Shown: positions 19,515 through 39,593 of the stretch, piece after piece
Numbering within the stretch: the first letter of the stretch is position 1
Layout: each line of letters starts with the position of its first letter
Source of the DNA: Desulfobacterales bacterium
Lineage (GTDB): Bacteria; Desulfobacterota; Desulfobacteria; Desulfobacterales; G020353555
Assembly: GCA_020353555.1 (NCBI GenBank)
Contig: CP070697.1
Location: 6,678,865-6,718,762, forward strand
Direction: 5' to 3'
DNA length: 39,898 nucleotides
The notes under the pieces: generated by a model
Database searches by the model: none
Seen by the model: the letters and a program-made list of their open reading frames with translations, nothing else
What the model was told of the DNA's origin: nothing
Made by a program: the position numbers and the translations under genes

Positions 19515-21660
19515 CGTCCCCGCCCTTTTGTTCGTCCACCTTGATAATGACTAAGGTAACATCGTCTTCCTTTTGCGTCAGCGGATGGCGGAACTTTTCC
19601 AGCGCGGTGGTCACGGCCTGAATGATTTGCGCCGCGGAGTTGTGCGCCTGGGAACGGATGAGCCTTTGCAGCGATTCTCGGCCGAACATTCGACCGTCCT
19701 TGTTGCGGGCCTCCCAGATACCGTCGGTGCCGATAATGATGATCTGCCCGGGGCTAATTTCCCGCTGCTGTTCCTCGTATTGGGCATCCTCAAAAACGCC
19801 CAGAGGCAACCCGCGTCCGCCCAGCTCTTCAAAGGCGTCGGTATGGACATCATAGATCATGGCCGGCTCGTGCCCGGCGCGAACCCAACGAAATTTCTTC
19901 TGACGTCCATCGACTTGACCGTAAAAAAGGGTCATGAATTGGCCTGAATCTTCTACATCCTGGGAAAGCTGGCGATTGACGTCGGCCACGATTTGTTCAA
20001 CGCTGCCCGGCAAGGCCGTCCGCTGCCGCAAGAGGGCGCGCGCCGTGGCCATCAGCAGCGCGGCCGAAATACCGTGACCGGAGACATCCCCGACGACGAC
20101 GCCCAACTCGGCTTTCTTTAGTTTGGCGGGCGGGATAAAGTCATAGTAGTCGCCGCCGGTTTCTTCACAATAGACAATTTGGCCGGCGATATCCAATCCG
20201 TCGACAAGCGGGTTGGCTTTCGGCAAGAGATTCTGCTGCACTTCCTTGGCCAAGTCCAGCGCTTGGCGCATGTGCAGGTGCTCCTCAAGTTGCGGGCCGA
20301 CGAGGTTAAAAACCCGCCCCATTTCGCCGAATTCGTCCCGGGAACGAATGTTGACCCGGGTATCAAAATGCCCCCTCGCCAGGCGCGCGGCGCCTTCGGC
20401 CAAGATGTGCATCGGTTTGGTCACGGTCCGGGAAAAGGCCAACGCCAGCCCCATAATTACCGGCAAAATCGCCGCCACACCGTAACGGGTAACTTCCAGC
20501 AGGTCATCAATTTGACCCTGAATGTACGCTTGTGCCTGCTGGGCCGGCTTGAGAAGCTCCGCATACGGGGTGATGAGCACTAAAAAGCCCCGCGTATGCA
20601 TCGGCCCGTATACCCAAAGACATTCGCAACCCTTGTAACGCATACGGCGGATGTTGCTTATCCCCAGTTCAAAATCGTCCAGCACGGCCTTAAACTGTTT
20701 TTCATCGGTGGATACCAGCCAGTCGTCGGCCATCGAGGACCGCCAGCCCCTTGGACGATCAGCGCTGGGTTCCTCCCGCGCCACGATGCGAGCACCGCGG
20801 GCTCCTGTCTCCGGGTGCACCTCCAAATAAACCATCAACGGTTGCGTCTCGGTAGGAATGTTTTCCAGGAGCACCCGACGCTCCAGGAGGCTGCTGATCG
20901 GCACGATCAGCGACGTCACGCCGGCGATCTCTCCGCCGGGGCCCTTGACCGGCCTGGACACGGCGACAACACTCTGGCCGGTCTCCGGATCCACAAATTG
21001 ATCCGTCCACGGACTCTGCCGCTTGAAGGCGGCTGTATACCACAGCTGTTGGCGCGGATCGAAATCCAGGGGAATTTGACCGTGTCCCGGAAAAACACTG
21101 AGCAACCCATTTTCCAAGACGGTGTAGTGCCAGATAACAAGACCGCGAATCCGCTTGGAGAGTTCTTGATAAACCGGGGTCATGGCCGCGAGGCGCGCCA
21201 TATCAGCCGCCACATCTTCCGCTTTCACTCCGGAGACCCGTTTAAAAACCTGAGTCGAATAAGCCACTTCCATAATTTCCACCCGGTTTGCACCCAGTAT
21301 CCGAAAATGATTCGCCGAGGGGCTCAAGTCCGGGGGACGCCGAAGGGGGTCTTGAAAGTCGTGCGTGCGATAAATCTCGAGAGGGGTGCTCGGGTTCCGG
21401 GCCAAAAGTTCTTCCACCTCCCGCGCCTGTAAAAGAAGGGCCATTTCCAATTGCTCCCGCCCCTGCCAGAGCATCTGGGAATAAGTGGTGATCAGAAATC
21501 GCAGGCGGTCTTCGGCACTGTCAATCAGATTGGCGCGGGAACGTGCGATCAGCTCCTCCGCCAATCGCCGCACGGAGCGTACCCCCAAGGTGCGCATAAA
21601 CATAATCGGCACCAGCGCTATAATCAAAAGCACAACAAGCAATTTCCAGCGGAATCGCAT
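19501..21660 (-). CDS. Sensor phosphatase: extracytoplasmic Cache-like domain, HAMP, SpoIIE/RsbU phosphatase
   Basis: A 719-residue membrane receptor. One N-terminal membrane helix (about 5-22), a large periplasmic region (about 30-385) with a Cache-like stretch (WYTAAFKRQSPWTDQFVDPETGQSVVAVSRPV), a second helix (about 405-425), HAMP with RSRDEFGEMGRVFN, then AKEVQQNLLPK and a PP2C domain with GDYYDF, VGDVSGHG, GTDGIWEARNKDG and EDDVTLV. ATG at 21660 is preferred because GGAGG lies six bases upstream; the frame is open to 21735. It would sense a ligand outside the cytoplasmic membrane and dephosphorylate an anti-anti-sigma-type protein such as the STAS protein at 25984. It converges on and overlaps the first phosphatase gene. 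Confidence 0.9.
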   Translation of the reverse strand: MRFRWKLLVVLLIIALVPIMFMRTLGVRSVRRLAEELIARSRANLIDSAEDRLRFLITTYSQMLWQGREQLEMALLLQAREVEELLARNPSTPLEIYRTHDFQDPLRRPPDLSPSANHFRILGANRVEIMEVAYSTQVFKRVSGVKAEDVAADMARLAAMTPVYQELSKRIRGLVIWHYTVLENGLLSVFPGHGQIPLDFDPRQQLWYTAAFKRQSPWTDQFVDPETGQSVVAVSRPVKGPGGEIAGVTSLIVPISSLLERRVLLENIPTETQPLMVYLEVHPETGARGARIVAREEPSADRPRGWRSSMADDWLVSTDEKQFKAVLDDFELGISNIRRMRYKGCECLWVYGPMHTRGFLVLITPYAELLKPAQQAQAYIQGQIDDLLEVTRYGVAAILPVIMGLALAFSRTVTKPMHILAEGAARLARGHFDTRVNIRSRDEFGEMGRVFNLVGPQLEEHLHMRQALDLAKEVQQNLLPKANPLVDGLDIAGQIVYCEETGGDYYDFIPPAKLKKAELGVVVGDVSGHGISAALLMATARALLRQRTALPGSVEQIVADVNRQLSQDVEDSGQFMTLFYGQVDGRQKKFRWVRAGHEPAMIYDVHTDAFEELGGRGLPLGVFEDAQYEEQQREISPGQIIIIGTDGIWEARNKDGRMFGRESLQRLIRSQAHNSAAQIIQAVTTALEKFRHPLTQKEDDVTLVIIKVDEQKGGDAKGV
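19680..19709 (-). repeat. 30-bp perfect inverted repeat, copy 2
   Basis: Within the second phosphatase gene, encoding the same RNKDGRMFG motif as 19339-19368, in opposite orientation, 311 bases away. Confidence 0.85.
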
Positions 21661-22190
21661 GTCCATCCTCCTTAAAAACAGGCCGCCCCTGAATGCGCGG
21701 GAATGATTGATTTTGGTATGGCGAACATCTCCCAAGGCCGGCCGCTTCGGGGGTCAAGGCTCTTAAAATCCCTTGGAATGCGAGGGAATTAAAGCATTGG
21801 CTCAAGTTTGAAAATTCCGCCTTCGGCAGCGACAGCCTGCTGATGACGCCTCCCGAACCTTCAAGGCTTGTTTTAATCGTTTGAGATCATTATATTAACG
21901 TAGATTGGCCGCAAAAATTAAGGCTTGTCAAGCGATTATGATAGATAGTATGAGAAACTACCTGGGGATTGATTTGTGCCAGCTCGACCGTCTTCTGTCG
22001 AAATCTAATCATCCCGGCTGCTTGGGGCTAAACGAAACCGGTCCGCGAAGAACGACGACGGAAGGCCTAGATGCCGGTTCCGGGTTCCTGGCAACAGGAG
22101 GCGGGCCAAGCCTCATTCTTAAACCGCTGACCGTCTTTGCCTTCCTCACGGCCGTTAATTCATTTCCCGCAAAGATTGGAGGAGCTTCCT
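21661..22190. other. Divergent spacer between the sensor phosphatase and the ABC exporter
   Basis: About 530 bases without a supported gene. The centre (about 21880-21960) is AT-rich and contains the palindrome GCTTGTCAAGC (21923-21933), which gives a TTGTCA on the plus strand with TATGAG 18 bases on, and a TTGACA on the minus strand. A short hairpin TCCTG-GCAA-CAGGA lies at 22086-22099. This is the likely promoter region for both genes. Confidence 0.4.
21925..21954 (+). promoter_or_regulatory. Candidate promoter for the ABC exporter operon
   Basis: TTGTCA (21925-21930), 18-base spacer, TATGAG (21949-21954). Only a partial match to sigma-70 consensus; the long leader (over 200 bases) weakens it. 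Confidence 0.25.
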
Positions 22191-24704
22191 ATGGCAAAAG
22201 GTGAAACCCCCATCGTCAAGCGATCCCTTTATTCCTGGGTATTCGCAGGCAATGTCGGCCTTCAACTCCTGCTGTTGCTCATTATTGTCGTGATGGTTTT
22301 TACCCGGGTTCTACCCTTGGAAATGCAAAAACGCATCGTCAATGAGGCCATAAATTTACGAAAAATCGATTTGTTGTTGAGTTACTGCGGAATCTATTTG
22401 GCGGCCGTGGTTTTGGCCAACGGGCTCAAATACCTCAATTCGATGGTGACGACCGTTATCACGCAACGCGCGACCGCTAACATGCGCAAGGGACTATACC
22501 ACTACATTTTAACCCTGCCCTTAAGTTTTTTCCGCAACACGCAGCCGGGGATGGTGGTCAACTCGCTCGTCAACGAGCTGACGCTGCCGGCCAATTTTGT
22601 GGGCATGGCCGTGGCGGCGCCAGTCAGCAATGTGTTGACCTTGCTGGCGTTTGCCGGTTACCTGTTTCGGCTGAATCCGCTCTTGGCGGCGGTTTCCCTG
22701 AGTATTTACCCGATCGTCGTTTTTTTGGTTCCGATGCTGCAAAAAGGGGTCAACCGGGCCAACAAAAAACGCGTGGACACCGCCCGAACGTTATCGAGCG
22801 CCATCGCGGAATCCATTTCCGGCATTCATGAAATCCAGGGTAACGGCGCCTACGGCATCGAACACCGCAAGTTTGACGGTTTGGCGGATAAGCTGGAGAA
22901 AATTCGGGTCATCTGGAGCCTGTATCGCTTTGGCGTAAAGACGATGAACAATTTCTTCACCGGGCTGGGTCCATTTATCGTTTTCATTCTGGGCGGTTTC
23001 CTAACCATCAAAGGTCAGCTGGAATTGGGCGCCCTCGTCGCCTTTTTGTCGGCCCAGGAAAAGCTCTATGATCCCTGGCGGGAACTCATCGAGTTCTATC
23101 AGGTTTACCAGGATGGCGTGGTTAACTACAACCGCACCATGGAATATTTCAATGTGGAACCGGAGCATGCCCTGGAACCTCAAGGCCGCCCGCCGTTTGA
23201 ACTGGACGGCAGTGTCGAAGTCAAGGATCTGCAATTTGAAACCTCCAGCGGGATTCGCCTGCTCGACGGCATCAATCTTTCACTAAAGCCCGGCGAGCAC
23301 CTCGCTCTCGTCGGTTTTTCCGGCAGCGGCAAAAGCACGTTGGCGCTGTGCATCGGACAGTTGTATAAGTATACGGACGGTCATGTTTTGATCGGCGATA
23401 AAGAAGTCGCCGAGCTGAGCAAAAAAGACATGGTCATCAATATCGGTTTTGTCTCCCAGAGCCCCTTTATTTTCGAGGGAACCCTCGAGGAAAATCTTCT
23501 TTACTCCTGTAAGGCGATGATCGACGGGCAGGGCCAGCCGGTGAACAATCATTTGCCGACCCTGGATGACATCATTGCGGTGCTCCATCAAACCGGCATT
23601 TTCGTGGACGTGCTCCGCTTCGGCCTGAACACGATTTTGGCCCGGGACGAGCATGAAGACCTGGTGGAAGTGCTCACGCGGGTTCGTAGGAATTTTCAGC
23701 GCGATTACGGAGAGGAACTCGCCGATTATGTGGAATTTTTTGATGAAAACAAATATCTTTACTACTCCAGTGTGGCCGAAAATTTGACCTTCGGCGCGTC
23801 CGCCAAAGAAGCCTTCAACAATTCGAATTTGGCTAAGAACGAATATTTTCTGAACTTTCTGGATCGGGCGGATTTGACCCGGCCGTTACTGAGTTTGGGC
23901 GCCGCGCTTTCCAAACAAACGGTGGATATCTTGGGCAATCTTACCCCCGATGCGGTGTTTTTCGAACAAAGCCCCATCACCGCCGATGAGTTGGATGATT
24001 ACAAATTGATCGTTGAACACCAAAAAAGGCAGAAACTGCATCAGCTTACAGGTACCGATCGCCAGAGACTCCTTGAACTGGCCTTGCGGTTTACCCCGGG
24101 GATCCATAAAATGGCCGCACTTCCTCAGATGCTGGAAACCCTTATCCTGGAGGGACGCGCCCTTTTCCGCGAAAAAATTTCCGCCGACGACCCCGGAGCA
24201 TTTTCGTTTTATCAGTTAGCGGAATACATCTATTCCCAGACGATTCTGAACAATATCTTCTTCGGTAAAACCAAAACCGCCAGCCCTCAAACCCAGGAAA
24301 AAATTGACCAGAGCATTGTGCAGCTGCTGATCGAAGAGGATCTTTTGGAAACGATTATTGAAATCGGTATGCGCTATGACGTCGGCACCAAGGGAGACAA
24401 ACTGTCCGGAGGGCAGCGCCAAAAACTGGCGATTGCCCGCGCGTTTCTCAAGGCCCCCAGGATTTTGATTATGGACGAAGCCACCTCCGCCCTGGACAAC
24501 AAATCCCAGGCCCGTATCCAGAATCTGCTCGAAACCCGCTGGAAAAACAAAAGCACGTTGATTGCCGTGGTGCACCGGCTGGACACCATCAAAAACTTTG
24601 ATCGGGTGGCGGTGATGAAGGCCGGCAAAATCGCTGAAATGGGCACTTACAACGAACTCATAGCCCAGAAAGGAATGCTATATGAACTCGTCGGAAAAAA
24701 ATGA
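22191..24704 (+). CDS. ABC exporter with fused membrane and ATPase domains and a ~250-residue insertion in the ATPase
   Basis: An 837-residue ABC half-exporter. Transmembrane domain about 15-310 (six helices), then a nucleotide-binding domain with Walker A GFSGSGKS (375-382), Q-loop Gln423, signature LSGGQ (738-742), Walker B ILIMDEA (758-764) and H-loop His795. Q-loop to signature is normally about 60 residues; here it is 315. Three similar segments occur: FIFEGTLEENLLYS (426-439), YLYYSSVAENLTFG (522-535) and YIYSQTILNNIFFG (679-692), each like the stretch following a Q-loop, so the helical subdomain seems to have been repeated. Start ATG at 22191 follows GGAGG by eight bases; the frame is open to 22137. 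Substrate unknown; it overlaps the next gene and sits in a partner-switching locus. Confidence 0.9.
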   Translation: MAKGETPIVKRSLYSWVFAGNVGLQLLLLLIIVVMVFTRVLPLEMQKRIVNEAINLRKIDLLLSYCGIYLAAVVLANGLKYLNSMVTTVITQRATANMRKGLYHYILTLPLSFFRNTQPGMVVNSLVNELTLPANFVGMAVAAPVSNVLTLLAFAGYLFRLNPLLAAVSLSIYPIVVFLVPMLQKGVNRANKKRVDTARTLSSAIAESISGIHEIQGNGAYGIEHRKFDGLADKLEKIRVIWSLYRFGVKTMNNFFTGLGPFIVFILGGFLTIKGQLELGALVAFLSAQEKLYDPWRELIEFYQVYQDGVVNYNRTMEYFNVEPEHALEPQGRPPFELDGSVEVKDLQFETSSGIRLLDGINLSLKPGEHLALVGFSGSGKSTLALCIGQLYKYTDGHVLIGDKEVAELSKKDMVINIGFVSQSPFIFEGTLEENLLYSCKAMIDGQGQPVNNHLPTLDDIIAVLHQTGIFVDVLRFGLNTILARDEHEDLVEVLTRVRRNFQRDYGEELADYVEFFDENKYLYYSSVAENLTFGASAKEAFNNSNLAKNEYFLNFLDRADLTRPLLSLGAALSKQTVDILGNLTPDAVFFEQSPITADELDDYKLIVEHQKRQKLHQLTGTDRQRLLELALRFTPGIHKMAALPQMLETLILEGRALFREKISADDPGAFSFYQLAEYIYSQTILNNIFFGKTKTASPQTQEKIDQSIVQLLIEEDLLETIIEIGMRYDVGTKGDKLSGGQRQKLAIARAFLKAPRILIMDEATSALDNKSQARIQNLLETRWKNKSTLIAVVHRLDTIKNFDRVAVMKAGKIAEMGTYNELIAQKGMLYELVGKK

Positions 24705-25206
24705 CGCCACTGCGCCCTGCGAATTTATGGATAATCTGAACCTTTTGAGACAAACCTACTTTTTTTCCAGCTTTCCCCTGGAAACGCTCAAGGTGATCGC
24801 CTATCTTTGCGCCCGCGAGAAGTTCAAAAAGGGCCTAGCCCTGTTCAATCAGAACGAAGACGACGGCCAAGCCTTTTTAGTCATCGACGGTAAAGCCAGG
24901 CTCGAGCGCGAAGACGACGGCAAAATGACGGTAATCCGAGAATGTCATGCCGGAGAGTTCCTGGGAGGTCTGACATTATTAGGCGGCAGACACCGCCTTT
25001 TTTCTTTGATCGCCGTTGAAGACACTACTTGCCTGATCATACACCGTGAGAAGTTTACCAAAGCGATCAAACAATTCCCTGATATCATGCCTAAAATTTT
25101 GAAGGCCGTGGTCGATAACATCAGCACCTGGGAAGAACGCTTTTTGACGGAACGCGCGGAGGAGTGCGGCGGTTGCCTCGAAAAACTGGGCGTCAGTCTG
25201 GTCTGA
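24682..25206 (+). CDS. Cyclic-nucleotide-binding-like domain protein
   Basis: A 174-residue cytoplasmic protein with one CNB/CRP-type beta-roll (about 28-145: KFKKGLALFNQNEDDGQAFLVIDGKARL...) and a short helical tail with a CGGC pair near the end; there is no DNA-binding domain. The phosphate-binding cassette is degenerate: the usual FGE is replaced by LGG in EFLGGLTLLGGRHRLFS, so cyclic nucleotide binding is doubtful. The gene begins 23 bases inside the ABC exporter gene, so the two are translationally linked and the protein may regulate the transporter. Start ATG at 24682 is consistent with the overlap. Confidence 0.82.
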   Translation: MNSSEKNDATAPCEFMDNLNLLRQTYFFSSFPLETLKVIAYLCAREKFKKGLALFNQNEDDGQAFLVIDGKARLEREDDGKMTVIRECHAGEFLGGLTLLGGRHRLFSLIAVEDTTCLIIHREKFTKAIKQFPDIMPKILKAVVDNISTWEERFLTERAEECGGCLEKLGVSLV

Positions 25207-25275
25207 CCTCTGAACTTTAGAATTAAGTCCGGCCGGGTTGATGGTTGTTTGTTTTCCGCGGCGAAAGCTGCCACG

Positions 25276-25300
25276 CCCGCGCTTGCAATTGCAGCGCGGG
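25276..25300. terminator. GC-rich hairpin after the CNB-like gene
   Basis: CCCGCGC and GCGCGGG form a perfect 7-bp stem around TTGCAATTGCA, which can itself pair. It lies 70 bases after the CNB-like gene and before the rsbW-like gene. The downstream side is AT-rich but lacks a T-tract, so the terminator assignment is tentative. Confidence 0.45.
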
Positions 25301-25336
25301 GACTCCCGGATTATATCTTTATGCATCTTAACAACT

Positions 25337-25342
25337 TATAAT
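25337..25342 (+). promoter_or_regulatory. Candidate -10 element for the rsbW-rsbV pair
   Basis: A perfect TATAAT inside the near-palindrome CTTAACAACTTATAATTATTAAG region, 140 bases before the RsbW-like start. No good -35 element is present, so it could be activator-dependent or chance in AT-rich DNA. Confidence 0.3.
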
Positions 25343-25481
25343 TATTAAGAAAACACACCATGAAGCACGGACGGTTGCCATGGCGTCGATTTAAATTACC
25401 TTGAAAATTTTTCCAAATTTTAGGAAAATAAATACAAAGACGCGCCAAGATCAGGCTGGGAAATGCGGAAGGTTAAAGGTG

Positions 25482-25919
25482 ATGGCGAAAAAGACGTATA
25501 GTTTTGAACTCAAAAGCAACCTGTCGGAGTTGGATCGACTCTGTCACAATCTGCAGCAGTTTTGCCATTCGATGGGGCTGCACCCCAAATGCCTGTTTGA
25601 GATCAACCTGGCCTTGGACGAGCTGTTTACCAACATCATTTCCTATGGCTTTCAGGACGATAAAGAGCATCAGATCAAATTCACACTGACACCGCAAAAA
25701 GATTTGCTGATTTTGTGCATTGAAGATGACGGCGTACCCTTTAACCCCATTGAAGCGGATACGCCGGACCTGGAATGTTCCATCAGTGAATGCAAAATCG
25801 GTGGCCTCGGTATTCATTTGATCAAAAATCTAATGGATGAGGTGTGTTATCGAAGATGCCGCGGAAAGAATATTTTGACGATGAAAAAGAAAATTGACGC
25901 CCACGAAGCCGCAGGATAA
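25482..25919 (+). CDS. RsbW/SpoIIAB-like serine kinase (anti-sigma factor type)
   Basis: A 145-residue GHKL-fold kinase. N-box EINLALDELFTNIISYGF (near 41-58), ATP-lid motifs IEDDGVPFNP and GGLGIHLIKNLMDEV. These are the hallmarks of RsbW-type proteins that phosphorylate a STAS antagonist and sequester a partner, often a sigma factor. ATG at 25482 gives the usual start; the frame is open back to 25401. The STAS partner lies 64 bases downstream. No sigma factor gene is in the window, so the target may be encoded elsewhere or may not be a sigma factor. Confidence 0.9.
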   Translation: MAKKTYSFELKSNLSELDRLCHNLQQFCHSMGLHPKCLFEINLALDELFTNIISYGFQDDKEHQIKFTLTPQKDLLILCIEDDGVPFNPIEADTPDLECSISECKIGGLGIHLIKNLMDEVCYRRCRGKNILTMKKKIDAHEAAG

Positions 25920-28669: not shown

Positions 28670-30631
28670 TCAATACGCCAACCGTCCCAATGATTTCAGT
28701 ATCAGCGTAACCCCCATGGAGAACATCCCGGTCAGGCCCATCCCACAGGAAAATCCGGCCAGTAGGACGGGAGCATATTGGCGCCACATGGCGCCGTAGC
28801 GTTTCAGGAAGAAAAAACGGCCCAGCAGGGCGCCCACGACTTCCAGGATAAGTCCGTGGGGCGTGCTCTGGCCCAGCCCCCGCACCATCCCGTAAACCAA
28901 AAGTATCGGCAGTCCCAAAAGGGTCAGAATCGCATAGGTGATTACGCCGAGCCCCATACCCGCCAAAACATAAACGCCGTTGAGGGCCTCGTAGAAAAGG
29001 GAATTCCCTTCCAGCGTGGACGTTTGCATCAAGAGCGTATTGAGCGCCTGCAGGTGCCACAACTCCTGTGCAAAAGGATAAGCGCTGGAAGGAATGGGCG
29101 CCAAGCGCCAGATGAACTGGGAAAACAGCAGACTGGCCACCATCACCACCGGAAAAACGACGATTTCAGACTTTATGATTCCCCGGATGCTTGTGCCGGT
29201 CAGCTCGATTTCGCGGAAATTCACGGTGGCCTGACCATAGTTGTGGATGGGAATCGGTGCGTACCAGATCTCAATGCCCTGATAGCCGAAGTACTTGGCT
29301 CCGGCAATAAAACTGGCCTCCCGCACCAACGGTAGGCTCACAAACTGGCCGGCGATCCCTTCCATGCGAGCCGTAATGTAGGATACAAGCGGAGTATAGA
29401 CAAAACCGTAGGCCAGAAAGAAAATCCACGGAAAACTCGGCACCAGCCAGACGCAGAGCAACACATAGGAAGTGGTGGAAAAAACATAAATGCCGATGGA
29501 AATCCAGAAATTAAAATCGCCCCGGCCCGGCGGCGGCCGGAATAAATCCCTGAAGCTGCCCCGTTGCCCGACGGCATTTTGGCCAAAGGATCGCAAGACA
29601 TGCCAAATGCCCACCAGGGCGATGGCCAGCCCCAACCCGATGCTGAAGCTCATGTAAAAATCGAAGTTATTGGCGAAGACCGTATCTACCGTTCCCATGC
29701 CCGGGTGCCATCGCGAGAGGATTCCGTGGCGAAATAGGATTGGATTGGCGACGACCGTGATGACGAGTCCGATCAGACCACCGATCACGGCCCAGAAGGG
29801 CAGGACCATACCGACGAAAATAAGCCCGAGATCAAGCTGAATGCCGGTGGCCACCGCCGGCAGGATCTCTTCCGTGTGCCGCGTAAGCTCCACCCAGGGA
29901 ATCGGAATCAGCCGGATTGGTTCGGTAAACAAAAGACCCGAAAGGGTGGGCAAGAGCACATAGATCCCGCCGAAGCCAAGTCCGATAACCCCCCCAATGG
30001 AGAATATGCGCCATTTCCAGCTTTTCTGCTTATCTTCGGTGGACTCGGCCAAAGCCATGGTCCCCAGAGCCGCCACCGGCGCCATGGGAAAGGGGAGCTT
30101 CTCCACATCCGAAGTGATGCGGTAGAGGGCATACCCCAAGCCAAACTGGTCGATGCGCTGAATGATCTGGGTGCCAACCAGCAGAAGGATCGGAATCAGC
30201 CAGTCCCGATGGAAAAAAGTCCGTTCCGCCAACGAAATCGATTCCGGGGAAGGTGCGACCCAGTTAGGGATAAACTCGGTTAAGCCCAGCATCCGGGCAG
30301 CATCGGATTGGACCAGATATTGATTCCACAGGAGGCCCTGAAAGGGTGTGTGCAGCGCCGCACCGGCCATGTAATAAAGCAGGAAAATCTCCTGCTGCTT
30401 GAGTTCGCTGTAAGAGCGTTTGGCCATTTCGGCAAAGAGGATAATCGTCACCCAGCGCGCCGCCGGACCGATTCCGGTGCCGATCACCAGCTGCAAATAC
30501 ATACTGCCCGGCATCATCAAAAAGCCGATAAAGACCGCCCCGACAATCGTTTTCCAGTCAAAGCCTTCTTCGAAATGATCCGGGGCTTTTAAGAGATCCC
30601 TGTATTCCTGGAGTTCTTTGTCTTCGTACAT
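28670..30631 (-). CDS. OPT-like polytopic membrane protein
   Basis: A 653-residue integral membrane protein with about 14 hydrophobic segments. It starts with a 25-residue acidic cytoplasmic tail then DWKTIVGAVFIGFLMMPGSMYLQ. The C-terminal half has FREIELTGTSIRGIIKSE, WRLAPIPSSAYPFAQELW, and ALLGRFFFLKRYGAMWRQYAPVLLAGFSCGMGL, which resemble the oligopeptide/metal-peptide transporter (OPT) superfamily; this is recollection of the family pattern, not a search. Substrate unknown. It follows a second large membrane protein gene of a different family, in the same operon. Confidence 0.75.
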   Translation of the reverse strand: MYEDKELQEYRDLLKAPDHFEEGFDWKTIVGAVFIGFLMMPGSMYLQLVIGTGIGPAARWVTIILFAEMAKRSYSELKQQEIFLLYYMAGAALHTPFQGLLWNQYLVQSDAARMLGLTEFIPNWVAPSPESISLAERTFFHRDWLIPILLLVGTQIIQRIDQFGLGYALYRITSDVEKLPFPMAPVAALGTMALAESTEDKQKSWKWRIFSIGGVIGLGFGGIYVLLPTLSGLLFTEPIRLIPIPWVELTRHTEEILPAVATGIQLDLGLIFVGMVLPFWAVIGGLIGLVITVVANPILFRHGILSRWHPGMGTVDTVFANNFDFYMSFSIGLGLAIALVGIWHVLRSFGQNAVGQRGSFRDLFRPPPGRGDFNFWISIGIYVFSTTSYVLLCVWLVPSFPWIFFLAYGFVYTPLVSYITARMEGIAGQFVSLPLVREASFIAGAKYFGYQGIEIWYAPIPIHNYGQATVNFREIELTGTSIRGIIKSEIVVFPVVMVASLLFSQFIWRLAPIPSSAYPFAQELWHLQALNTLLMQTSTLEGNSLFYEALNGVYVLAGMGLGVITYAILTLLGLPILLVYGMVRGLGQSTPHGLILEVVGALLGRFFFLKRYGAMWRQYAPVLLAGFSCGMGLTGMFSMGVTLILKSLGRLAY

Positions 30632-30803: not shown

Positions 30804-32843
30804 TCAGTCCGGTAGGACCAAGTAACTGGAATGGCTGAAGAGCCCGATGATGGCCCAGGTGCCGGCCATGAAAAAATCCCCGATGATCAAACCCACAAAG
30901 AAGTTGCGCAGTTTTTTAAACAAAACCACTCCACCATAACGCATGCAAAGCGCATTGCACAGCCAGCCCACAAAAAAACTGAACCACAGCGTCTGCATGG
31001 AGAAGCTGTAGGCCGTCAGATACCCGATCGGATGGATTGGCCACCAGTAAAACCGGTGATAACAGGTTACCAGGCCCAACATAATGGCGGCTCCGGCCAG
31101 GGAGAATATCAGCACCCATTTTCCGGGCTCGATCGGGGATTCAATCAATGTGTAGATATTATCGTAGACCGTTAGGGTGGTCCGTGTCGCCCAGTCCAGT
31201 TGGAGCTCGCGGATCCCGAACTTGTAAGAAAGAGTCAGCATGGCCAGCAAGGAAACGACCACACCGGCGGCCAGCATGACCGCTAGGCAGACAAAAATTC
31301 TGCGAGTGTTGCGGGCCCCATCGACGACCTTGCGCGCATGCAGCAAAGACGGCATGAGGGATTCCCGCAGATCCACGAAAAGGACCTTTTGGATAATCGC
31401 CGCGACCAAAATCCCCATACCGGTAAACATCCTGACGCCGAAAAAGGCCGTTATTCCATCAATTGGGGCCGCGCTGAGCGTGAAATAGGCAATCCCGCCC
31501 TGGCAGATAACCCGCGTGGCCACCAGGGTAAAAAGAAAAAAAGCGCCGACCACCAAAAAAGAAACCAGCAAGGGAATACCGAAATAATGACACCACACCA
31601 CGATTCCGCATCCTCCGGCCACAAACCCCCAAAAGGCCGTTCGGGTGGAAAGCCAGCCGGATTCCGCATCGACCTCCTTTTTGAGACCTAGGCCGACCCG
31701 CACGGTCTCGAGAAAATGGAATCGGGCCAGCCAGGCCAGAAACACAAAAAAAACCAGATAAGCTCCAATCATCTGGGTTTCCTCGGGCCGGGATAGGGCT
31801 GGACCGAATGTGACCCCTAGCGCCGCCGCCGGAATATTGATGCCCAGGACGCTCAACAAACCGATCAACAATTCTCCCGCAATAAAGAAAAACCAGAAGG
31901 AAAACGAGATCTGCTTCGATGTCAGGAAGGCAAAACCGATAAAAGCCGGATAAATATATATCTTGAGTTTGTAAAACCCCGCGAATAAACCGGTTTTTGA
32001 GAAATATTGGCCCGCCAGAATCAATGTCGGTATCTGGGGGATCTCAGGATTATAAAAACTCAGGCCGTTCATCGTATGCAGAAAGACCGGAACCAAGAGG
32101 CCGGCCAGCATAAAGCGATTGGCGAAAAAACGGCCCAGCGCGTTCTCGTCCATGGCTTCCTGCATCAACAGAGGAACGCGCAGCAGGGGAAAATTCATCC
32201 GTTCATTATAAAGCGGCTGTTTGCTGAGCAGACTGACAATACACGCCATCACGAAATAACAAAGGAAGATAAAACCGCCCCAGGACAGCAGGGGGAGCAA
32301 CCAGGCCTCCCAGGGTATCTGCCGGAGAACCTCCCACCAGCCCAACTGCCGACCTCCCGTAAATCCATTGTAGAGGTCGGCGATCGCCGCTTCACTTTGA
32401 GGGTACCAAATTCGCGGCATAAGCGGGTGCAGGACTTCTTCCCAGCGGTTTTCAACGGTGGCAAAGTGATAGGGCGCCGTCAGATTGATAAAGAAGGTGC
32501 GGGCCAGTCCGGTCCAGGCGACTCCCGAAACGACAACCATCAGGGCCCAGACTACCAGGACCTCCTTGCCGGTCAGCAATTCCCGGTCTTTGAAAATCCA
32601 GCGGATCGCCCCGATTAAAATCATCAGCCATACCAGAATGTAAAAGGGTGCCAACGGAAAATGGCCGCCGCCCAGGGGTGTTGCTTGACGATAAGCATTA
32701 TTGAAAGGCGTGATCAGGCAGATTACCAGCGCCAGCAACATTCCCAATGAAAGGGCCCGCCCCCGGACCCTGTCGCCGGTTGGAGGGTCTTTATCCTTTC
32801 GCAATGCATCCGGGGTTTTGAAACTCGGGGGGGTTGGTGTCAT
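30804..32843 (-). CDS. DUF6785-like polytopic membrane protein
   Basis: A 679-residue integral membrane protein with about 14 hydrophobic segments. A soluble N-terminal tail of about 30 residues precedes the first helix; PFNNAYRQATPLGGGHFPLAPFYILVWLM and, after the third helix, PYHFATVENRWEEVLHPLMPRIWYP are typical of the DUF6785/DUF6784 membrane proteins found mainly in PVC-group bacteria and Armatimonadota (from memory). The function is unknown. Its start lies 53 bases inside the end of the giant M28-FtsX gene, so expression is coupled. The ribosome binding site is weak. ATG codon 34 (MLLALVICLITPF) is a less likely alternative start. Confidence 0.8.
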   Translation of the reverse strand: MTPTPPSFKTPDALRKDKDPPTGDRVRGRALSLGMLLALVICLITPFNNAYRQATPLGGGHFPLAPFYILVWLMILIGAIRWIFKDRELLTGKEVLVVWALMVVVSGVAWTGLARTFFINLTAPYHFATVENRWEEVLHPLMPRIWYPQSEAAIADLYNGFTGGRQLGWWEVLRQIPWEAWLLPLLSWGGFIFLCYFVMACIVSLLSKQPLYNERMNFPLLRVPLLMQEAMDENALGRFFANRFMLAGLLVPVFLHTMNGLSFYNPEIPQIPTLILAGQYFSKTGLFAGFYKLKIYIYPAFIGFAFLTSKQISFSFWFFFIAGELLIGLLSVLGINIPAAALGVTFGPALSRPEETQMIGAYLVFFVFLAWLARFHFLETVRVGLGLKKEVDAESGWLSTRTAFWGFVAGGCGIVVWCHYFGIPLLVSFLVVGAFFLFTLVATRVICQGGIAYFTLSAAPIDGITAFFGVRMFTGMGILVAAIIQKVLFVDLRESLMPSLLHARKVVDGARNTRRIFVCLAVMLAAGVVVSLLAMLTLSYKFGIRELQLDWATRTTLTVYDNIYTLIESPIEPGKWVLIFSLAGAAIMLGLVTCYHRFYWWPIHPIGYLTAYSFSMQTLWFSFFVGWLCNALCMRYGGVVLFKKLRNFFVGLIIGDFFMAGTWAIIGLFSHSSYLVLPD

Positions 32844-35800
32844 CTTTGGTTTCTTTCTGATCGGAACTTGCTCCCAATTCTTGCTCAGCTTCCGCCAACA
32901 AATGTTCGTAGTGCGCTTTGGACGCCAGATCGAAGGACCGCCATACTAACAGCTGTCTGCGTATTTGATGCAGAAAGGTTTTGTTGATCCGGTGCCAGGC
33001 ATTGGCTTCGCCGGATTCACGGATCAGGCGCACCCGGATTTCCAGAAATCCGGGTTCACCTCCGGCCGGCAGGAAGGCCAGCTCCACTTGCTGCATGATA
33101 CCGAAGTCAAAGGGGGCCAGCCAGACGCTGGAACTGACTTGAAGACAGGCTTCGAATTCACATTCCTGTTCGGGACATGTGTTTTCAACTTCCGAAATAC
33201 CCGGCGCGACGTGGCAGACAAATCCGAATTCAATATTGCCGGTTGAGAACATCCCGTGGGATACATCCTGGTGTCCCTGAAAATAATCGTAAAGATATCC
33301 GCCGACACTGCGGTGCTCCCGGTAGCGCATCAAAAAAGGCAGCGTCAGTTCGAGCTCATTTCCTTGGGACTCCGGCAGCGTCCAGGATCGGTTCACATCC
33401 GGAATGGCGATTTCGCCGGCCACCTTGGACGGATAAATGACGGAGACCAGCACCACGATAATCACCAGGAGCATCGCCGCCACACCGGCCCATGACGAAT
33501 AGTTCACTGTAATTCCGGCCCACAGCGACGTCGCCGCAAAGAGTTTGGCGGTGGTCTGGGCCAGCAAGTAGCCCAGCACGACACTCAGGACCGCCAAGGC
33601 CAGAGCCTCGGCAATGAACAGAAATGACACATGGGACGGCGCCAAACCCACCGAAGTGTAAATGCCGATCTCCCGTTTTCTCTCATACACACTGCCGATC
33701 ATGGTGTTTAAGACAATGAAGACCGAGATGACCAGGGGAATGAGAATGTTCGGCACCCCGCTGTAACTCATGGTGTCGCTGGCATGATACAGATAGGTGC
33801 CATCCGGTTCGCCGCTGAAAAGGGACAGTCCGAAACGATCCACCAGATTCTGAGCCGAGGTTTGGATGGAGGTCGCCGGCTGGGGACGAATGGCAACCCC
33901 CTTGAGATGCCCGCCGGCGGCCAGCAGCGTGCGGTAAGGAATGATCAGCGTCAGATCACCGGAAATGTGCTGATATTGGCTCTGAAACTCCTGCACGTCT
34001 TCGCCGGACTCCAGGGCTTCGACCTCCACTTCCGTCAGCTCGGTGGTAACTTCCCGCGGAAAGGTCACCGGGGTCAGCGGTTCGCCGTCCAGGTCGAGCC
34101 GGTTCTGCAATTTGGAACCTGCAAAAACACCGACCACGTCAAACGGCATCCCCCACAGGGTGACCGTCGTCCCCTGGAGACGGCCGGGATCGATGCCTAA
34201 CTTCCGCGCCAAACGCTCCGGCAATAGAACCGCCTGCCGTTCGTCGGCCGCCAGCCACCGTCCGCCGACCAGAATATCGTCCAATCCGGACACCTGGGCT
34301 TCTGCATGCGAAAGTCCCACCAGACCCTGAGCCTCAAAAACCTGGTCTTCAAAACGAACGGGGATGCGGGGCGCCCGGGTTTTATCCTCGTCCTCCAACC
34401 ACACCCGTGGGACCGTCAGCCCTTGGCCGGCAAACGCATTGGATATGATGCCCAGGGCTTCTGGTGGCAGATTTTGCCAATTAAAGTTCTTCAACAGAAA
34501 GCCCTGATAAGGCGCGCTGCGCTGGAACAAAAGACGGGCATGGTGCCGCATGGATTTGACGGAGGTGAAACTCATGATGGTAAAGGTGAGAATCACCAGC
34601 GTGGCACAGGTTAGGGCGGTTCGCAACCGGCGGCGTCTTAAATTGCTCACTCCCAACAAGAAAGCGGCGACAAAAGCTTTCCAACGACCGATCTCACCGG
34701 CCTGCGCCAGTTGGGCCCGTGTCTGGAGCCGGGTCATCTCCTCCTCAAAGCGAAAGAAGATAATGAGCGTCACCATCAAGGAAAGTCCCATGATGAAAAA
34801 GGCCAGAATCACCACCATCGGGCTATAGGCGAGTTGGAAAGCGGGGTGGACGTTGTAGATCAAAGCGATCAAAAGGATCAGAATGGTACAGAAGGCAATG
34901 ATACGTTTGTAGATGTCGGAGTAGGAAAACAGGAGACGCTCCAGGCAAAATGCAAAGGGAACAAACAGGGCAATGTAAAACAATACTCCGTAAAGGACAT
35001 CTTTCTGTGTTTTTTCCACATCCTCATAAACCCGGCTGGCCAGGGCCCACGATCGGGCACTGGCTTCGGAAAAGCGATCGTATCTTTTATTCGCAAGCGC
35101 GGTTTCAGCCGTTTCTAAGGCCGCCAACCCCTCTTGCTCGAGCCGGCGGATACGGTCATTGAAAATGCCGCGCGCCTCCAGGTTGGCAATCCGGGGTCCC
35201 AGCAGGGTCCACATATCCCGGGCCACCCGAAATTCCGTCATGTGCAGGAAGGGCCATTTTTCCACCATGTACCCGGCCCCTTCGGGCTTATTTTCCGTGG
35301 CATTCAGCAAAACAAGTTTGTTGCGCAGAATGGTATCGGAAAGGGTCATCTTAAGAGGGGTCCCCGCCTCCAGAAAGATGGAGGTGATGACGGAGGACCA
35401 GGTGTCGAGTCGGCTCATAAACCAGCGCAGGGGATCGGCCTCCCGCCGCCCGTCAATCACATTGGGTTTCGTCAGATACCGAAATGTACGCGGTTCCAGC
35501 AAGTTAAACAGGGTGGTCCCGTTGCAGGCAAACATCACCAGGTCGGTTTCCATGAATCGGCGCTGCATTTTCACCCGATAGGCATCCTTGCCGGTTTGTT
35601 TTTTATCGATGGTCCAGATGACGGACCCGGTCAGCGGGTCGAATTTATACCCTTCGAGAATGACTTTGTGAAAGCTGTGTTTGCTGTCGGCCACGCCCCG
35701 GATCTGAAATTCTCCCAAGTGATCGACCATGACATGGTAACGGGCCGGACCTTGATAGGCCAACAGGACGGTTCCCGGCGCGGGCTGGTCCGCGAAAAGT

Positions 35801-37872
35801 TCGCCATGCCGGAGAAATTTGGCCCGCCCGGTCAAGTCGGAAAACCCGTTGCGCGGGTAAATATCGGCATTCCATTTGGGGGCCTGCGCCAAATGGCGGA
35901 TCAGCCCGCACACCAAGGCACTTTGCTTGAGCGCATATGCGATGTTCAGCTTCTCGGCCGTGTCGTAAGGGGTTCCCCACGTCGGCCGGGCATCATAGGT
36001 CGTCACCAAGCTGATACCATGATAACCCGCCAGGGCGGTCACCTCCCCGCCTAAAGGTGGCCGATCAAGAAAATAACTCTGCCAGGAAGCGCGCCGGCTG
36101 GGCCGCAAAGTATCTTGAAACAGACCGGAAAGTCCCTCCGCTTGCTCCAGTTGGCGGGCCCCTTGCCGCAAAACCTCGTCCAGCTCACTGTAGGCGGCCA
36201 CGCGGTTGATGCGCGGCCGGAAGGGATAAAGCCAGCCGTAGTTGAAAGCGCCGAACCCGTCGCCGTGGCTGGACAGGTGCAACGAGACGGCTGCCACCAG
36301 GTCAAAGGCCTTGACCTGTCCGCGAAAATTGCGAGCACTTTCTACTTGTTCAAGCTGAATCTTGGCATCGGTCAGGATGGCTCTTTGATCTTGCAGTGCC
36401 TTGGGTACCAGGCGAGCGAGAATTTCGCGCTCTTCGAGGGGAAGGTCTTTAAAATCGGTACGCCAGAGCAACCGGCGCAACGCCTGCCTTTCCTGGGCCA
36501 GCTGCTTGATAACATTCGGGTCAACTTCATCTTCCGTTTGCAGCCGAAGGCGCATCAGGTGACGGGAAACACTGTCCGCCTCGGTCTTGACGCGCTCATC
36601 CAGGGCTTCTTTAAAGGCACGGCCCGCTTGCTCTTCCCCGGATTCAGCTTGTGCGGCGCTTTCAAACGAGGGTTCGGACAGGGCGCGGATCGTCTGGCGC
36701 GTCTCGGAAATAAGCGCTTTGAGCGCTCTTTTACTATCTCTTAAGTCCTTTGATCGGGCTGAGAGACTCCAAACGAGTTCACGCATTCCGGCCAATGCCT
36801 GGGCATGCCCGCCGGTCGCCACCAGCAGAACCGATCGTTGGGGAGGATGGCGCTTCAAAAGCCGGGCCGAAGCCAACAGGGTCGCCACACCGCAGGCCTC
36901 GTCAGCTCCCGGAGACAGCCCCGGAACGAAGGCGGTGCTGTCGTAAAAGGCGTCCACCATCACCAGCTCTTCGCCCAGCTTGGGATCGGTGCCGGGAATT
37001 AAGCAATAAATATTTTCCGCGGTAACGTTCTGCCAGGTCATCTCGGACACCAACCGGATCTCGGCGGCGACGCTTCCTTCCGGTAAGGTCTCAAAGGTAC
37101 CAAAATGCGCGCGCGCTTCGCTCAAAGACATCCAGAAGCGCGGAAACTGGATCGGTGATAGCTCCCGTTTCTCTTCGAAAAACATTTTGGACGATGATCC
37201 CCGATCGACATAGATCAGGGCTTGGGCCCCCAAATTCGCTGCATGCAGCCAGTTTTTACCGGACTCGAGCTCCATCAAAACGATGGCGCCCGCGATTAAT
37301 TTGCCGTTAAAATCAGCCAGCTCACCCGCGCCGACATAAACCAGCGGGCCGCTGACGCCAGGGGGGGGGATGGTTTGGGGCGTAATCGCGTTGGCGCGCA
37401 CAGGATGGATGGGAATCGTCAGGTCACGGCTGAGAAAGGTCAGGGTGCTTTGCCCATGGCGGATCACCGGTACGCTAAATTGGTGTGCACCCACATCTTC
37501 AAAGCCGAGTTCGGCAAATCTTTCAAGGATATAGGCGCCGGCCGCCGCGTTGCCCGGCGTACCGGTGCTGCGGTCGCCCAAAGATGCCAAGGTCCGGATG
37601 ACATCCATGAACTCGTCGGAAGGTGTCTTCGCATTTGAACCGGCCGCCCCAGGCGTCGCAAGAAAACCGCCCAAAAGAACTAAAAAAAGTAAAACGATCC
37701 ATTGACTCCAGCGCGAGGGTCGCCCGGGATGCCGGTCCCGCGGCGCCGGTCGCTGGTTGCGGGCGTCTGCGGTCTGGAAATTATTGACGAGACCCCGGAT
37801 GCCTGATTCGTGGTCCCGGCACCCGAATAAGCGATGCATGAACATTTCCGCTTCCAATCTCTGGTTTGCCAT
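32791..37872 (-). CDS. Giant fusion: degenerate M28 peptidase domain + FtsX-type permease
   Basis: A 1693-residue membrane protein. Order: basic tail (1-56); membrane anchor (57-77); M28-like domain in two parts (about 85-365 and 520-665, with a PA-like insert near 165-280) split by a charged helical insertion (366-520); beta-rich region (about 690-800); coiled-coil (about 900-950); three membrane helices (about 958-1042); FtsX helix (about 1082-1103); large periplasmic MacB-like region (1104-1370); three FtsX helices (1372-1395, 1418-1445, 1455-1480) with ERKREIGIYTSVGLAPSHV; cytoplasmic C-terminal domain (1490-1693). The peptidase metal ligands look mostly replaced: DAFYDS for the usual AHxDS, ATGGHAQ for the EE segment, GTPYDT for YHTxxDT; only the Asp in GADEACGVA remains. 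ATG at 37872 lacks a good ribosome site; ATG at 37845 is an alternative. Confidence 0.85.
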   Translation of the reverse strand: MANQRLEAEMFMHRLFGCRDHESGIRGLVNNFQTADARNQRPAPRDRHPGRPSRWSQWIVLLFLVLLGGFLATPGAAGSNAKTPSDEFMDVIRTLASLGDRSTGTPGNAAAGAYILERFAELGFEDVGAHQFSVPVIRHGQSTLTFLSRDLTIPIHPVRANAITPQTIPPPGVSGPLVYVGAGELADFNGKLIAGAIVLMELESGKNWLHAANLGAQALIYVDRGSSSKMFFEEKRELSPIQFPRFWMSLSEARAHFGTFETLPEGSVAAEIRLVSEMTWQNVTAENIYCLIPGTDPKLGEELVMVDAFYDSTAFVPGLSPGADEACGVATLLASARLLKRHPPQRSVLLVATGGHAQALAGMRELVWSLSARSKDLRDSKRALKALISETRQTIRALSEPSFESAAQAESGEEQAGRAFKEALDERVKTEADSVSRHLMRLRLQTEDEVDPNVIKQLAQERQALRRLLWRTDFKDLPLEEREILARLVPKALQDQRAILTDAKIQLEQVESARNFRGQVKAFDLVAAVSLHLSSHGDGFGAFNYGWLYPFRPRINRVAAYSELDEVLRQGARQLEQAEGLSGLFQDTLRPSRRASWQSYFLDRPPLGGEVTALAGYHGISLVTTYDARPTWGTPYDTAEKLNIAYALKQSALVCGLIRHLAQAPKWNADIYPRNGFSDLTGRAKFLRHGELFADQPAPGTVLLAYQGPARYHVMVDHLGEFQIRGVADSKHSFHKVILEGYKFDPLTGSVIWTIDKKQTGKDAYRVKMQRRFMETDLVMFACNGTTLFNLLEPRTFRYLTKPNVIDGRREADPLRWFMSRLDTWSSVITSIFLEAGTPLKMTLSDTILRNKLVLLNATENKPEGAGYMVEKWPFLHMTEFRVARDMWTLLGPRIANLEARGIFNDRIRRLEQEGLAALETAETALANKRYDRFSEASARSWALASRVYEDVEKTQKDVLYGVLFYIALFVPFAFCLERLLFSYSDIYKRIIAFCTILILLIALIYNVHPAFQLAYSPMVVILAFFIMGLSLMVTLIIFFRFEEEMTRLQTRAQLAQAGEIGRWKAFVAAFLLGVSNLRRRRLRTALTCATLVILTFTIMSFTSVKSMRHHARLLFQRSAPYQGFLLKNFNWQNLPPEALGIISNAFAGQGLTVPRVWLEDEDKTRAPRIPVRFEDQVFEAQGLVGLSHAEAQVSGLDDILVGGRWLAADERQAVLLPERLARKLGIDPGRLQGTTVTLWGMPFDVVGVFAGSKLQNRLDLDGEPLTPVTFPREVTTELTEVEVEALESGEDVQEFQSQYQHISGDLTLIIPYRTLLAAGGHLKGVAIRPQPATSIQTSAQNLVDRFGLSLFSGEPDGTYLYHASDTMSYSGVPNILIPLVISVFIVLNTMIGSVYERKREIGIYTSVGLAPSHVSFLFIAEALALAVLSVVLGYLLAQTTAKLFAATSLWAGITVNYSSWAGVAAMLLVIIVVLVSVIYPSKVAGEIAIPDVNRSWTLPESQGNELELTLPFLMRYREHRSVGGYLYDYFQGHQDVSHGMFSTGNIEFGFVCHVAPGISEVENTCPEQECEFEACLQVSSSVWLAPFDFGIMQQVELAFLPAGGEPGFLEIRVRLIRESGEANAWHRINKTFLHQIRRQLLVWRSFDLASKAHYEHLLAEAEQELGASSDQKETKDDTNPPEFQNPGCIAKG

Positions 37873-37970: not shown

Positions 37971-38708
37971 TCACTCCCGCGTGCCGATTTGACCGATTGA
38001 AATCGAAAGCTCTTCACGATCTTCGATTTTGTCGACTCGTCCGTCGCGGATCCACACCACCTGGTCGGAAACGTTCAACATCTTAAAATCATGGGTGGCG
38101 GAAATCACCGTAACATTGCGCTCTTGGCTGAGACGCTTCAACAGGGCGATCACATCTTCCCCGGTATTCAAATCAAGGTTGCCAGTGGGCTCATCCGCCA
38201 GAATGATGGCGGGATCATTGGCCAAGGCGCGGGCAATCGCCACCCGCTGCTGCTGCCCGCCGGAAAGCTCAAAAGGCTTATGGTTGAAACGATCAGCCAG
38301 TCCCACCAGCTCCAGCAGCTGGAGCCCTTTCTCTACCGCGGCATCGTTATTCATCCCGGCAAAAATCATGGGCAGGGTGACATTTTCCAGCGCCGTCATC
38401 ACCTGGATGATGTTGAAGGTCTGAAAAATATAGCCAATCTTACGGCAACGCAGCCAAGCCAATTCGTAGGCGTCGAGTTGGGCAATGTCGACTTCGTCGA
38501 TGAAGACCTTACCAGAGGTGGGTTTGTCCAGCCCGCCGATCATATTAAATAACGTGCTCTTCCCGGACCCGGACGGTCCCATGATGGAAATATAATGGCC
38601 CTTGGCGATTTCGAGATCGATCCCTTTTAAAGCCTGGACTTCCACCTTACCCAGTCGGAAAGACTTGGTGACTCCGGTCACACGGACGATATTGCTGGAT
38701 TCTGCCAT
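37971..38708 (-). CDS. ABC transporter ATPase, LolD/MacB type
   Basis: A 245-residue ATPase with Walker [10 protein letters not shown] (44-52), Q-loop Gln96, signature LSGGQ (148-152), Walker B with ADEPTGNLD (171-179) and H-loop His206. These match the FtsE/LolD/MacB group that energises FtsX-type permeases. ATG at 38708 follows AGGA at good spacing and gives the normal length; the frame is open to 38822. It lies between the small FtsX gene and the giant FtsX fusion, so the likely transporter is two ATPase copies with two different permeases. Confidence 0.93.
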
Positions 38709-38859
38709 CGTTGCGTCCTGATTACCTGGGTCGTGTCGTTTCACTCTTATCCCCGAAAAGCCGTGCGGAAAAGCCGCACGCGTAAAGCCAATGGTAAAAT
38801 AAGGCATCCGGTCCCCCGCCACTTCTGACCCGCCCTCAGAGACCCGAAACCGCCATAGG

Positions 38860-38901
38860 CTTTGAACTTGCAGCCTCTTTTTCCGGCCTTCTGCCCTCTA
38901 C
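38860..38901 (-). repeat. Degenerate heptamers running into the end of the small FtsX gene
   Basis: 7-base spaced units CTTTGAA, CTTGCAG, CCTCTTT, TTCCGGC, CTTCTGC, CCTCTAC, the last overlapping the stop codon of the FtsX gene. More degenerate than the arrays at 2704 and 2874. Confidence 0.4.
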
Positions 38902-39593
38902 TGCTCCACCCGCATGGCCTCCACCGGCTGCATCCGCGCGGCGACCAGGGCCGGGTACAAAACGCCGAGGAGGCTCAACAAGCACCCGACGCCGGTGGCG
39001 ATCCCCACGGAAAAAAACACACCGGTCCAGGAAACTTCGATTAGCGCCACGGTACCAAAGCGCAACACCGCGTTCAGCAGCGAAAAAAGGCCGCCGGCCA
39101 GGGCACCGGCACCGGCACCCGCCAAGCCTTGCATGCCGGCCTCAAGAATAAACAGTCGCAGGATAAAACGATCCAGCGCCCCCAAGCATTTCATGGTACC
39201 GATCTCACGAAATCGCTCGGTCACCGCCATGAGCTGGGCATTGACAATCCCCACCACGCAGACCAACAGGGAGAGGATCACAATCCACCTTTGCTTGGGG
39301 CTGCTGTCTACACGGGTGTCCTCAGCCCCCAGGTCGTAGCCGGAACGGACAACCGCCTGACGTAATTCGGGGTTCTGGGTGGCCAGAAGGCCATTGGCCA
39401 CCTCATTGCTGACACTGATGAAACCCAAAAACGAGACGGCCAGCACGAGACTCATGGTGGTAATCAGGGACCGGAAAAAGCGTACCTTGATGCTCTTCAA
39501 CGCAATCTCAATCGATTTAAGAAATGGCAGGACCACTAATCGGTCCCTTGAAAGTAGATTTTTTTTTGAACCGATGATTTGATCGCTATTCAT
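38898..39593 (-). CDS. Compact FtsX-type permease
   Basis: A 231-residue permease with four membrane helices (about 43-62, 103-122, 146-172, 190-214). The FtsX coupling segment TERFREIGTMKCLGA (125-139) and the C-terminal PALVAARMQPVEAMRVE are intact. Between helices 1 and 2 there are only about 40 residues, where MacB/LolC-type proteins carry a 200-residue periplasmic domain. It therefore keeps the membrane core but not the mechanical periplasmic arm; the large periplasmic part is supplied by the giant partner. First gene of the minus-strand operon; AAGGGA lies about ten bases before the ATG. Confidence 0.88.
   Translation of the reverse strand: MNSDQIIGSKKNLLSRDRLVVLPFLKSIEIALKSIKVRFFRSLITTMSLVLAVSFLGFISVSNEVANGLLATQNPELRQAVVRSGYDLGAEDTRVDSSPKQRWIVILSLLVCVVGIVNAQLMAVTERFREIGTMKCLGALDRFILRLFILEAGMQGLAGAGAGALAGGLFSLLNAVLRFGTVALIEVSWTGVFFSVGIATGVGCLLSLLGVLYPALVAARMQPVEAMRVEQ

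Follow-up and report, generated by a model that had tools for sequence, protein, structure and literature searches.

The metal ligands of M28 peptidases are a His, a bridging Asp, a Glu, an Asp and a His, and a catalytic Glu lies beside them. The best-known pseudo-M28 proteins are eukaryotic: the transferrin receptor, nicastrin and GPAA1 use the M28 fold without the normal zinc site. Type VII ABC transporters (MacB/LolCDE/FtsEX-like) usually do their periplasmic-side work through partner proteins, and E. coli YbbAP works in this way with the hydrolase-fold module TesA (PMC12646458). In this study, we analyzed a locus that combines an M28 fold with a permease of this type in the window, the whole stretch of 39,898 nucleotides from a Desulfobacterales bacterium (GCA_020353555.1, contig CP070697.1). 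The sequence-only reading of this DNA had concentrated on the gene at 32791-37872; the larger finding is the conserved five-gene system of which this gene forms the third member (Table 1).

Table 1. Features of the locus, with positions in the window; residue numbers refer to the large permease.
Feature	Position	Strand	Basis
Short FtsX permease, 231 aa, without periplasmic domain	38898..39593	minus	Pfam FtsX
LolD/MacB/FtsE-like ABC ATPase	37971..38822	minus	Pfam/NCBIfam; intact motifs
Pseudo-M28/FtsX permease, 1693 aa	32791..37872	minus	open ORF; Pfam M28, MacB_PCD, FtsX; 49 homologues aligned
PA-containing M28-like pseudo-peptidase domain, residues 84-665, insertion included	35878..37623	minus	AlphaFold, Foldseek
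PA (protease-associated) subdomain, residues ~173-229	37186..37356	minus	weak Pfam PA match
F309 (DAFYDS), first zinc-ligand His position	36946..36948	minus	never His in 49 homologues
D324 (GADEACG), bridging Asp, only ligand retained	36901..36903	minus	49/49
H356-A357 (GGHAQ), catalytic Glu / metal Glu pair position	36802..36807	minus	profile alignment, homologues
Charged four-helix insertion, residues 374-520	36313..36753	minus	DSSP on model
H532 (SLHLSSHGD), metal Asp position	36277..36279	minus	homologue alignment
G633 (WGTPYD; family WGTPxD), final ligand His position	35974..35976	minus	never His in 49
Three extra transmembrane helices before FtsX core, residues 958-1039	34756..35001	minus	hydropathy, 49 homologues
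MacB-like periplasmic core domain, residues 1167-1299	33976..34374	minus	Pfam; Foldseek to MacB periplasmic domain
FtsX permease C-terminal helices, residues 1378-1484	33421..33741	minus	Pfam E 2.7e-12
Conserved C-terminal domain, predicted cytoplasmic, residues 1494-1670	32863..33393	minus	conservation; weak fold matches
DUF6785/DUF6784 polytopic protein, distantly OPT-like	30804..32843	minus	Pfam E 2.9e-164; co-occurrence
653-aa polytopic protein, possibly distantly OPT-like	28670..30631	minus	conservation, co-occurrence
Accessory secreted or periplasmic protein, 206 aa	27788..28408	minus	linked in several, not all relatives
Accessory protein, 308 aa	26849..27775	minus	linked in several, not all relatives

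The M28 head of the large permease

Pfam detected Peptidase_M28 at residues 287-367 of the large permease (E 4.6e-8, 33.5 bits against a cut-off of 21.3), and the family profile aligned to the zinc aminopeptidases 2ek8 and 6hc6 across the N-terminal half, PA domain included. The Pfam PA match itself was below cut-off (E 0.0012), and 12 of 31 members matched. The AlphaFold model of residues 84-740 was confident (pLDDT 89), and the top fold matches of this head in Foldseek were 2ek8 (E 1.9e-20), 6hc6, PaAP, TfR1 and GCPII. By fold and by sequence profile, the large permease is an M28 family member by descent. The helices of the insertion, most of them confidently modeled, span residues ~374-399, 411-444, 452-470 and 479-520. 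Hydropathy across the family placed an N-terminal signal or anchor at residues 58-78 and the four FtsX helices at about 1086-1106, 1375-1395, 1414-1434 and 1460-1480, with the MacB-like periplasmic domain between TM1 and TM2, as in type VII systems. The rest of the model was poor overall (pLDDT 62); its confident part matches MacB. With this layout, both the pseudo-M28 head and the MacB-like domain would be periplasmic, and the C-terminal domain would be cytoplasmic. The proposal of the sequence-only reading, an M28 fold joined to an FtsX permease, carried on its periplasmic side and split by a long charged helical insertion, was thus borne out: the fusion by the Pfam matches, the profile alignment, the confident model and its fold matches, and the insertion by the four modeled helices, while the periplasmic location agrees with the predicted topology. 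For the C-terminal domain, we obtained weak, consistent START/SRPBCC/Bet v1-like fold matches that were not significant (E 0.02-0.1); sequence searches of Pfam and the PDB gave no match and left a START-like identity unconfirmed.

In the window protein, four of the metal ligands are replaced (His by Phe309, Glu by Ala357, Asp by His532 and His by Gly633) and the catalytic Glu position is occupied by His356. In the profile alignment to 2ek8 and 6hc6, F309 falls on the ligand His and H356/A357 on the Glu-Glu pair; G633 falls on the His of HTPED, in a piece of that alignment that alone scores below zero. The register of H532 comes from an 'xLDxxG' pattern and its strand position, not from a strong alignment. 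All ligand positions lie at the expected strand or helix ends in the confident head model. We then compared these positions in 49 aligned homologues, a sample that extends to sequences sharing about 33-38% identity with the window protein. Position 309 was F in 39, P in 5, S in 3 and R in 2 of them, and position 633 was G in 46, S in 2 and E in 1, with His at neither. Position 532 was His in 40 and Asp in one, position 357 was Asp in 2 and never Glu, and position 356 was His in 36 and otherwise N, R, Q, Y, K, G or S. Asp324 was the sole ligand in 46 of the 49, and any one homologue had at most two canonical ligands. No homologue with a canonical M28 metal site was found among the 49, indicating that the ligand loss predates the family sampled. 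The earlier claim that the zinc ligands are lost except for the bridging Asp therefore stands, and the homologue alignment proposed at the time as a check revealed losses common to all 49 proteins and no differently aligned canonical ligands. Two loci with long ORFs that were considered as canonical fusions (L064 and L065) encode M28 proteins of the secreted type; these contain the first His and the Glu-Glu motifs, have no permease and do not belong to the family.

The head thus does not have the five metal ligands and catalytic Glu of an active M28 peptidase and, judged from the aligned residues, a two-zinc site should not be able to form from their homologous positions. Its cleft is conserved: D324, W632, T634 and D637 are each present in 49/49, position 610 is E or D in 49/49, and D311 is invariant or nearly so. 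Such residues argue for a maintained function and not for decay, and the head is very probably a pseudoenzyme of old origin that has been conserved, not an enzyme in decay. It may act as a binding or mechanical module, as the sequence-only reading proposed. That the domain is a decaying relic without function, as the survival of a single catalytic ligand might suggest, is extremely improbable, because it is present in every full-length member and many cleft residues are invariant at pairwise identities down to 26%. It is also quite unlikely that the head is still an enzyme, with either non-metal chemistry or a reconstructed metal site such as a 2-His-1-carboxylate site made by H356, H532 and D324. 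The frequent His at 532 (40/49) and 356 (36/49) and the constant acidic residues at 324 and 610 would be available for such a site, and the profile match 2anp, which we take to be an E151H aminopeptidase mutant with some activity kept, has His at the same catalytic position. However, although many close members have this set, residue 356 is Arg in two homologues (L034 and L017) and Asn in another (L012) with H532 staying in all three. Among the most divergent members, the majority show N, D, S or Y at 532 and a residue other than His at 356. Because H356 is replaced or H532 lost in several members, a conserved replacement metal site is unlikely. The His/Glu/His positions missing here are, to our knowledge, needed by every known M28 enzyme, and we know of none that works without them.

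The five-gene cluster and its distribution

The short FtsX and ATPase genes lie upstream of the pseudo-M28 permease gene, in this order, and the genes for the DUF6785/6784 protein and the 653-aa protein lie downstream, the former overlapping the pseudo-M28 gene by 53 bp. This order is kept in divergent members; in several relatives (L037, L043, L045 and L047), the last two genes are not adjacent to the others. The Walker A, signature and Walker B motifs of the ATPase are intact in 20/20 aligned homologues, and its best NCBIfam match is LolD, at 226.8 bits and so below the cut-off of 307.75. From these motifs and from the adjacency of its gene, we predict that it is the active, dedicated LolD/MacB/FtsE-type ATPase of a type VII system. 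The short FtsX protein, 219-242 aa long in 19/19 homologues, keeps the membrane helices and has almost no loop at the usual site of the periplasmic domain. The accessory genes near the system gave no hint of a substrate. Two relatives (L045 and L046) have the pseudo-M28 permease divided among at least 2 ORFs, which may be real or due to assembly error. Elsewhere in the window, a cluster at 18054-25919 encodes SpoIIE phosphatases (18054-19514 and 19501-21735), an ABC-exporter-like protein (22137-24704), a cNMP-binding protein (24682-25206) and an RsbW-type HATPase (25401-25919); in some relatives, the neighborhood of the system again contains homologues of the ABC-exporter-like, cNMP-binding and HATPase proteins.

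To determine the distribution of the system, the same 297 genomes of the phylum were searched separately for the pseudo-M28 permease by profile, for the 653-aa protein and for DUF6785 by its Pfam model. Each search returned the identical 20 genomes with one copy per genome, and in several carriers (e.g., G045, G190, G266 and G346) the pseudo-M28 and 653-aa genes are on different contigs. The carriers are spread over 12 families, two of which (f59 and f75) hold both carriers and non-carriers, and DUF6785 was absent from 14 control genomes. The identical genome sets with one copy each suggest that the three proteins are gained and lost as one unit. This strict co-occurrence shows that they belong to one pathway, not necessarily to one complex. 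Across 14 shared loci, mean pairwise identity was 78% for the 653-aa protein, 74% for the ATPase, 53% for DUF6785, 52% for the short FtsX and 39% for the M28 region, making the 653-aa protein the most constrained part of the system; it is 71-90% identical to its homologues and at least 67% identical in every pair compared. The genes neighboring its homologues are mostly far less conserved than the 653-aa protein itself. A scan of 84,980 species with exact peptide patterns, which divergent members would escape, returned 17 loci, and every one of their titles names a Desulfobacterota-type or Deltaproteobacteria organism. Our search for family members on plasmids and viral contigs found none.

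No Pfam or NCBIfam family was found for the 653-aa protein, and neither it nor the DUF6785 protein of the window matched Pfam OPT (PF03169), the family of oligopeptide/metal-chelate transporters. We compared both with a profile of 14 OPT transporters from the phylum, using reversed, block-shuffled and unrelated FtsX alignments as controls. DUF6785 scored 46.9 over 409 columns, near end to end, and the 653-aa protein 43.5 over 220 columns, with control alignments at 30.8 or less; the HHalign probabilities for the two proteins were 48-58%. An 'E..L.fP' stretch is common to both alignments, and a divergent 653-aa homologue (G129) matched Pfam OPT at E 7.9e-4 with 18.7 bits, below the cut-off of 25.8. 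No direct homology between the two proteins was detectable. These similarities, which lie below standard significance, hint that DUF6785 and the 653-aa protein may be very distant OPT relatives, at a level below that for OPT membership.

Possible modes of action

We lean slightly toward the view that the five-gene set encodes a heteromeric type VII ABC complex in which the zinc-free head acts with the OPT-like pair. Assembly of the five proteins into a single complex is moderately supported, and it is by inference that they are placed in one complex or pathway. In this model, ATP-driven motion of the FtsX helices, produced by the ATPase and the two FtsX proteins, would be passed to the pseudo-M28 head, which would serve as a docking or substrate-binding head for a partner or substrate. 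A plausible ligand would be a peptide N-terminus or another small ligand held in the old active-site cleft, which the head might hand to the OPT-like permease pair or use in gating it. A peptide-related ligand could suit both the aminopeptidase-fold head and the OPT-like proteins. Whether the ABC motor with its pseudo-aminopeptidase head drives or gates a divergent OPT-fold pair, and hence represents an undescribed class of ATP-powered envelope transporter, is a tentative and rather doubtful extension; if true, a mechanotransmission ABC would be coupled to secondary-transporter-like proteins.

Instead, the protein might be a regulator without a role in transport, in which docking to the head switches a periplasmic enzyme or a cell-wall hydrolase, much as FtsEX acts through EnvC (PMC12646458). 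The helical insertion could then serve as a lever, with DUF6785 and the 653-aa protein as membrane-bound partners comparable to BceS for BceAB. We consider such a regulator rather unlikely, because no peptidoglycan hydrolase or EnvC-like gene was found in the conserved cluster and the partner with the highest conservation is polytopic and resembles a transporter. A complex that pulls lipids or lipoproteins out of the inner membrane, like LolCDE or YbbAP-TesA, with the head receiving the cargo, would accord with LolD as the best, sub-cut-off match of the ATPase and with the START-like fold matches of the C-terminal domain. This too is unlikely: those matches (E at least 0.02) are not significant and are absent by sequence, the domain carrying them is predicted to be cytoplasmic, and one half-permease has no periplasmic domain, which LolC and LolE both have. 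The place of the permease in a conserved five-gene system, with a domain-less second FtsX and two obligate polytopic partners, tells more about function than the lost ligands.

Our literature search, covering the fusion, DUF6785/6784, the OPT combination and pseudo-M28 proteins, found no paper on this system and none with a pseudo-M28 domain fused to a type VII ABC permease. Altogether, the results suggest that sulfate-reducer-type bacteria have an ATP-powered envelope machine not yet described. Because the pseudo-M28 permease occurs strictly together with two membrane proteins, the set stands out as a coherent and unstudied system of environmentally important anaerobes, and it supplies a functional context for DUF6785/DUF6784.

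Comparison with known systems

The head has the same fold and domain order as the PA-containing M28 aminopeptidases (2ek8, BSAP 6hc6 and PaAP), but with four of five zinc ligands and the catalytic Glu replaced, a four-helix insertion added and the domain fused to a permease. Its likeness to the transferrin receptor, nicastrin and GPAA1, none of which is fused to an ABC permease, is one of fold and weak profile matches: TfR1 is among the top fold matches of the head, and Pfam Nicastrin weakly matches 6 of 31 members. With MacB, LolCDE, FtsEX and BceAB, the system has in common the FtsX-fold helices, the MacB-like periplasmic core domain and the LolD/MacB-like ATPase. It differs from LolCDE itself in the sub-cut-off LolD score of its ATPase and in its short FtsX, and from the whole group in its giant pseudo-M28 head, in the three TM helices added ahead of the FtsX core, in its second permease without periplasmic domain and in its two obligate polytopic partners. 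Like YbbAP-TesA, it is a type VII ABC system with a hydrolase-fold periplasmic module; whereas TesA is a separate, active esterase, the module here is fused to the permease, has an M28 fold and is without catalytic ligands.
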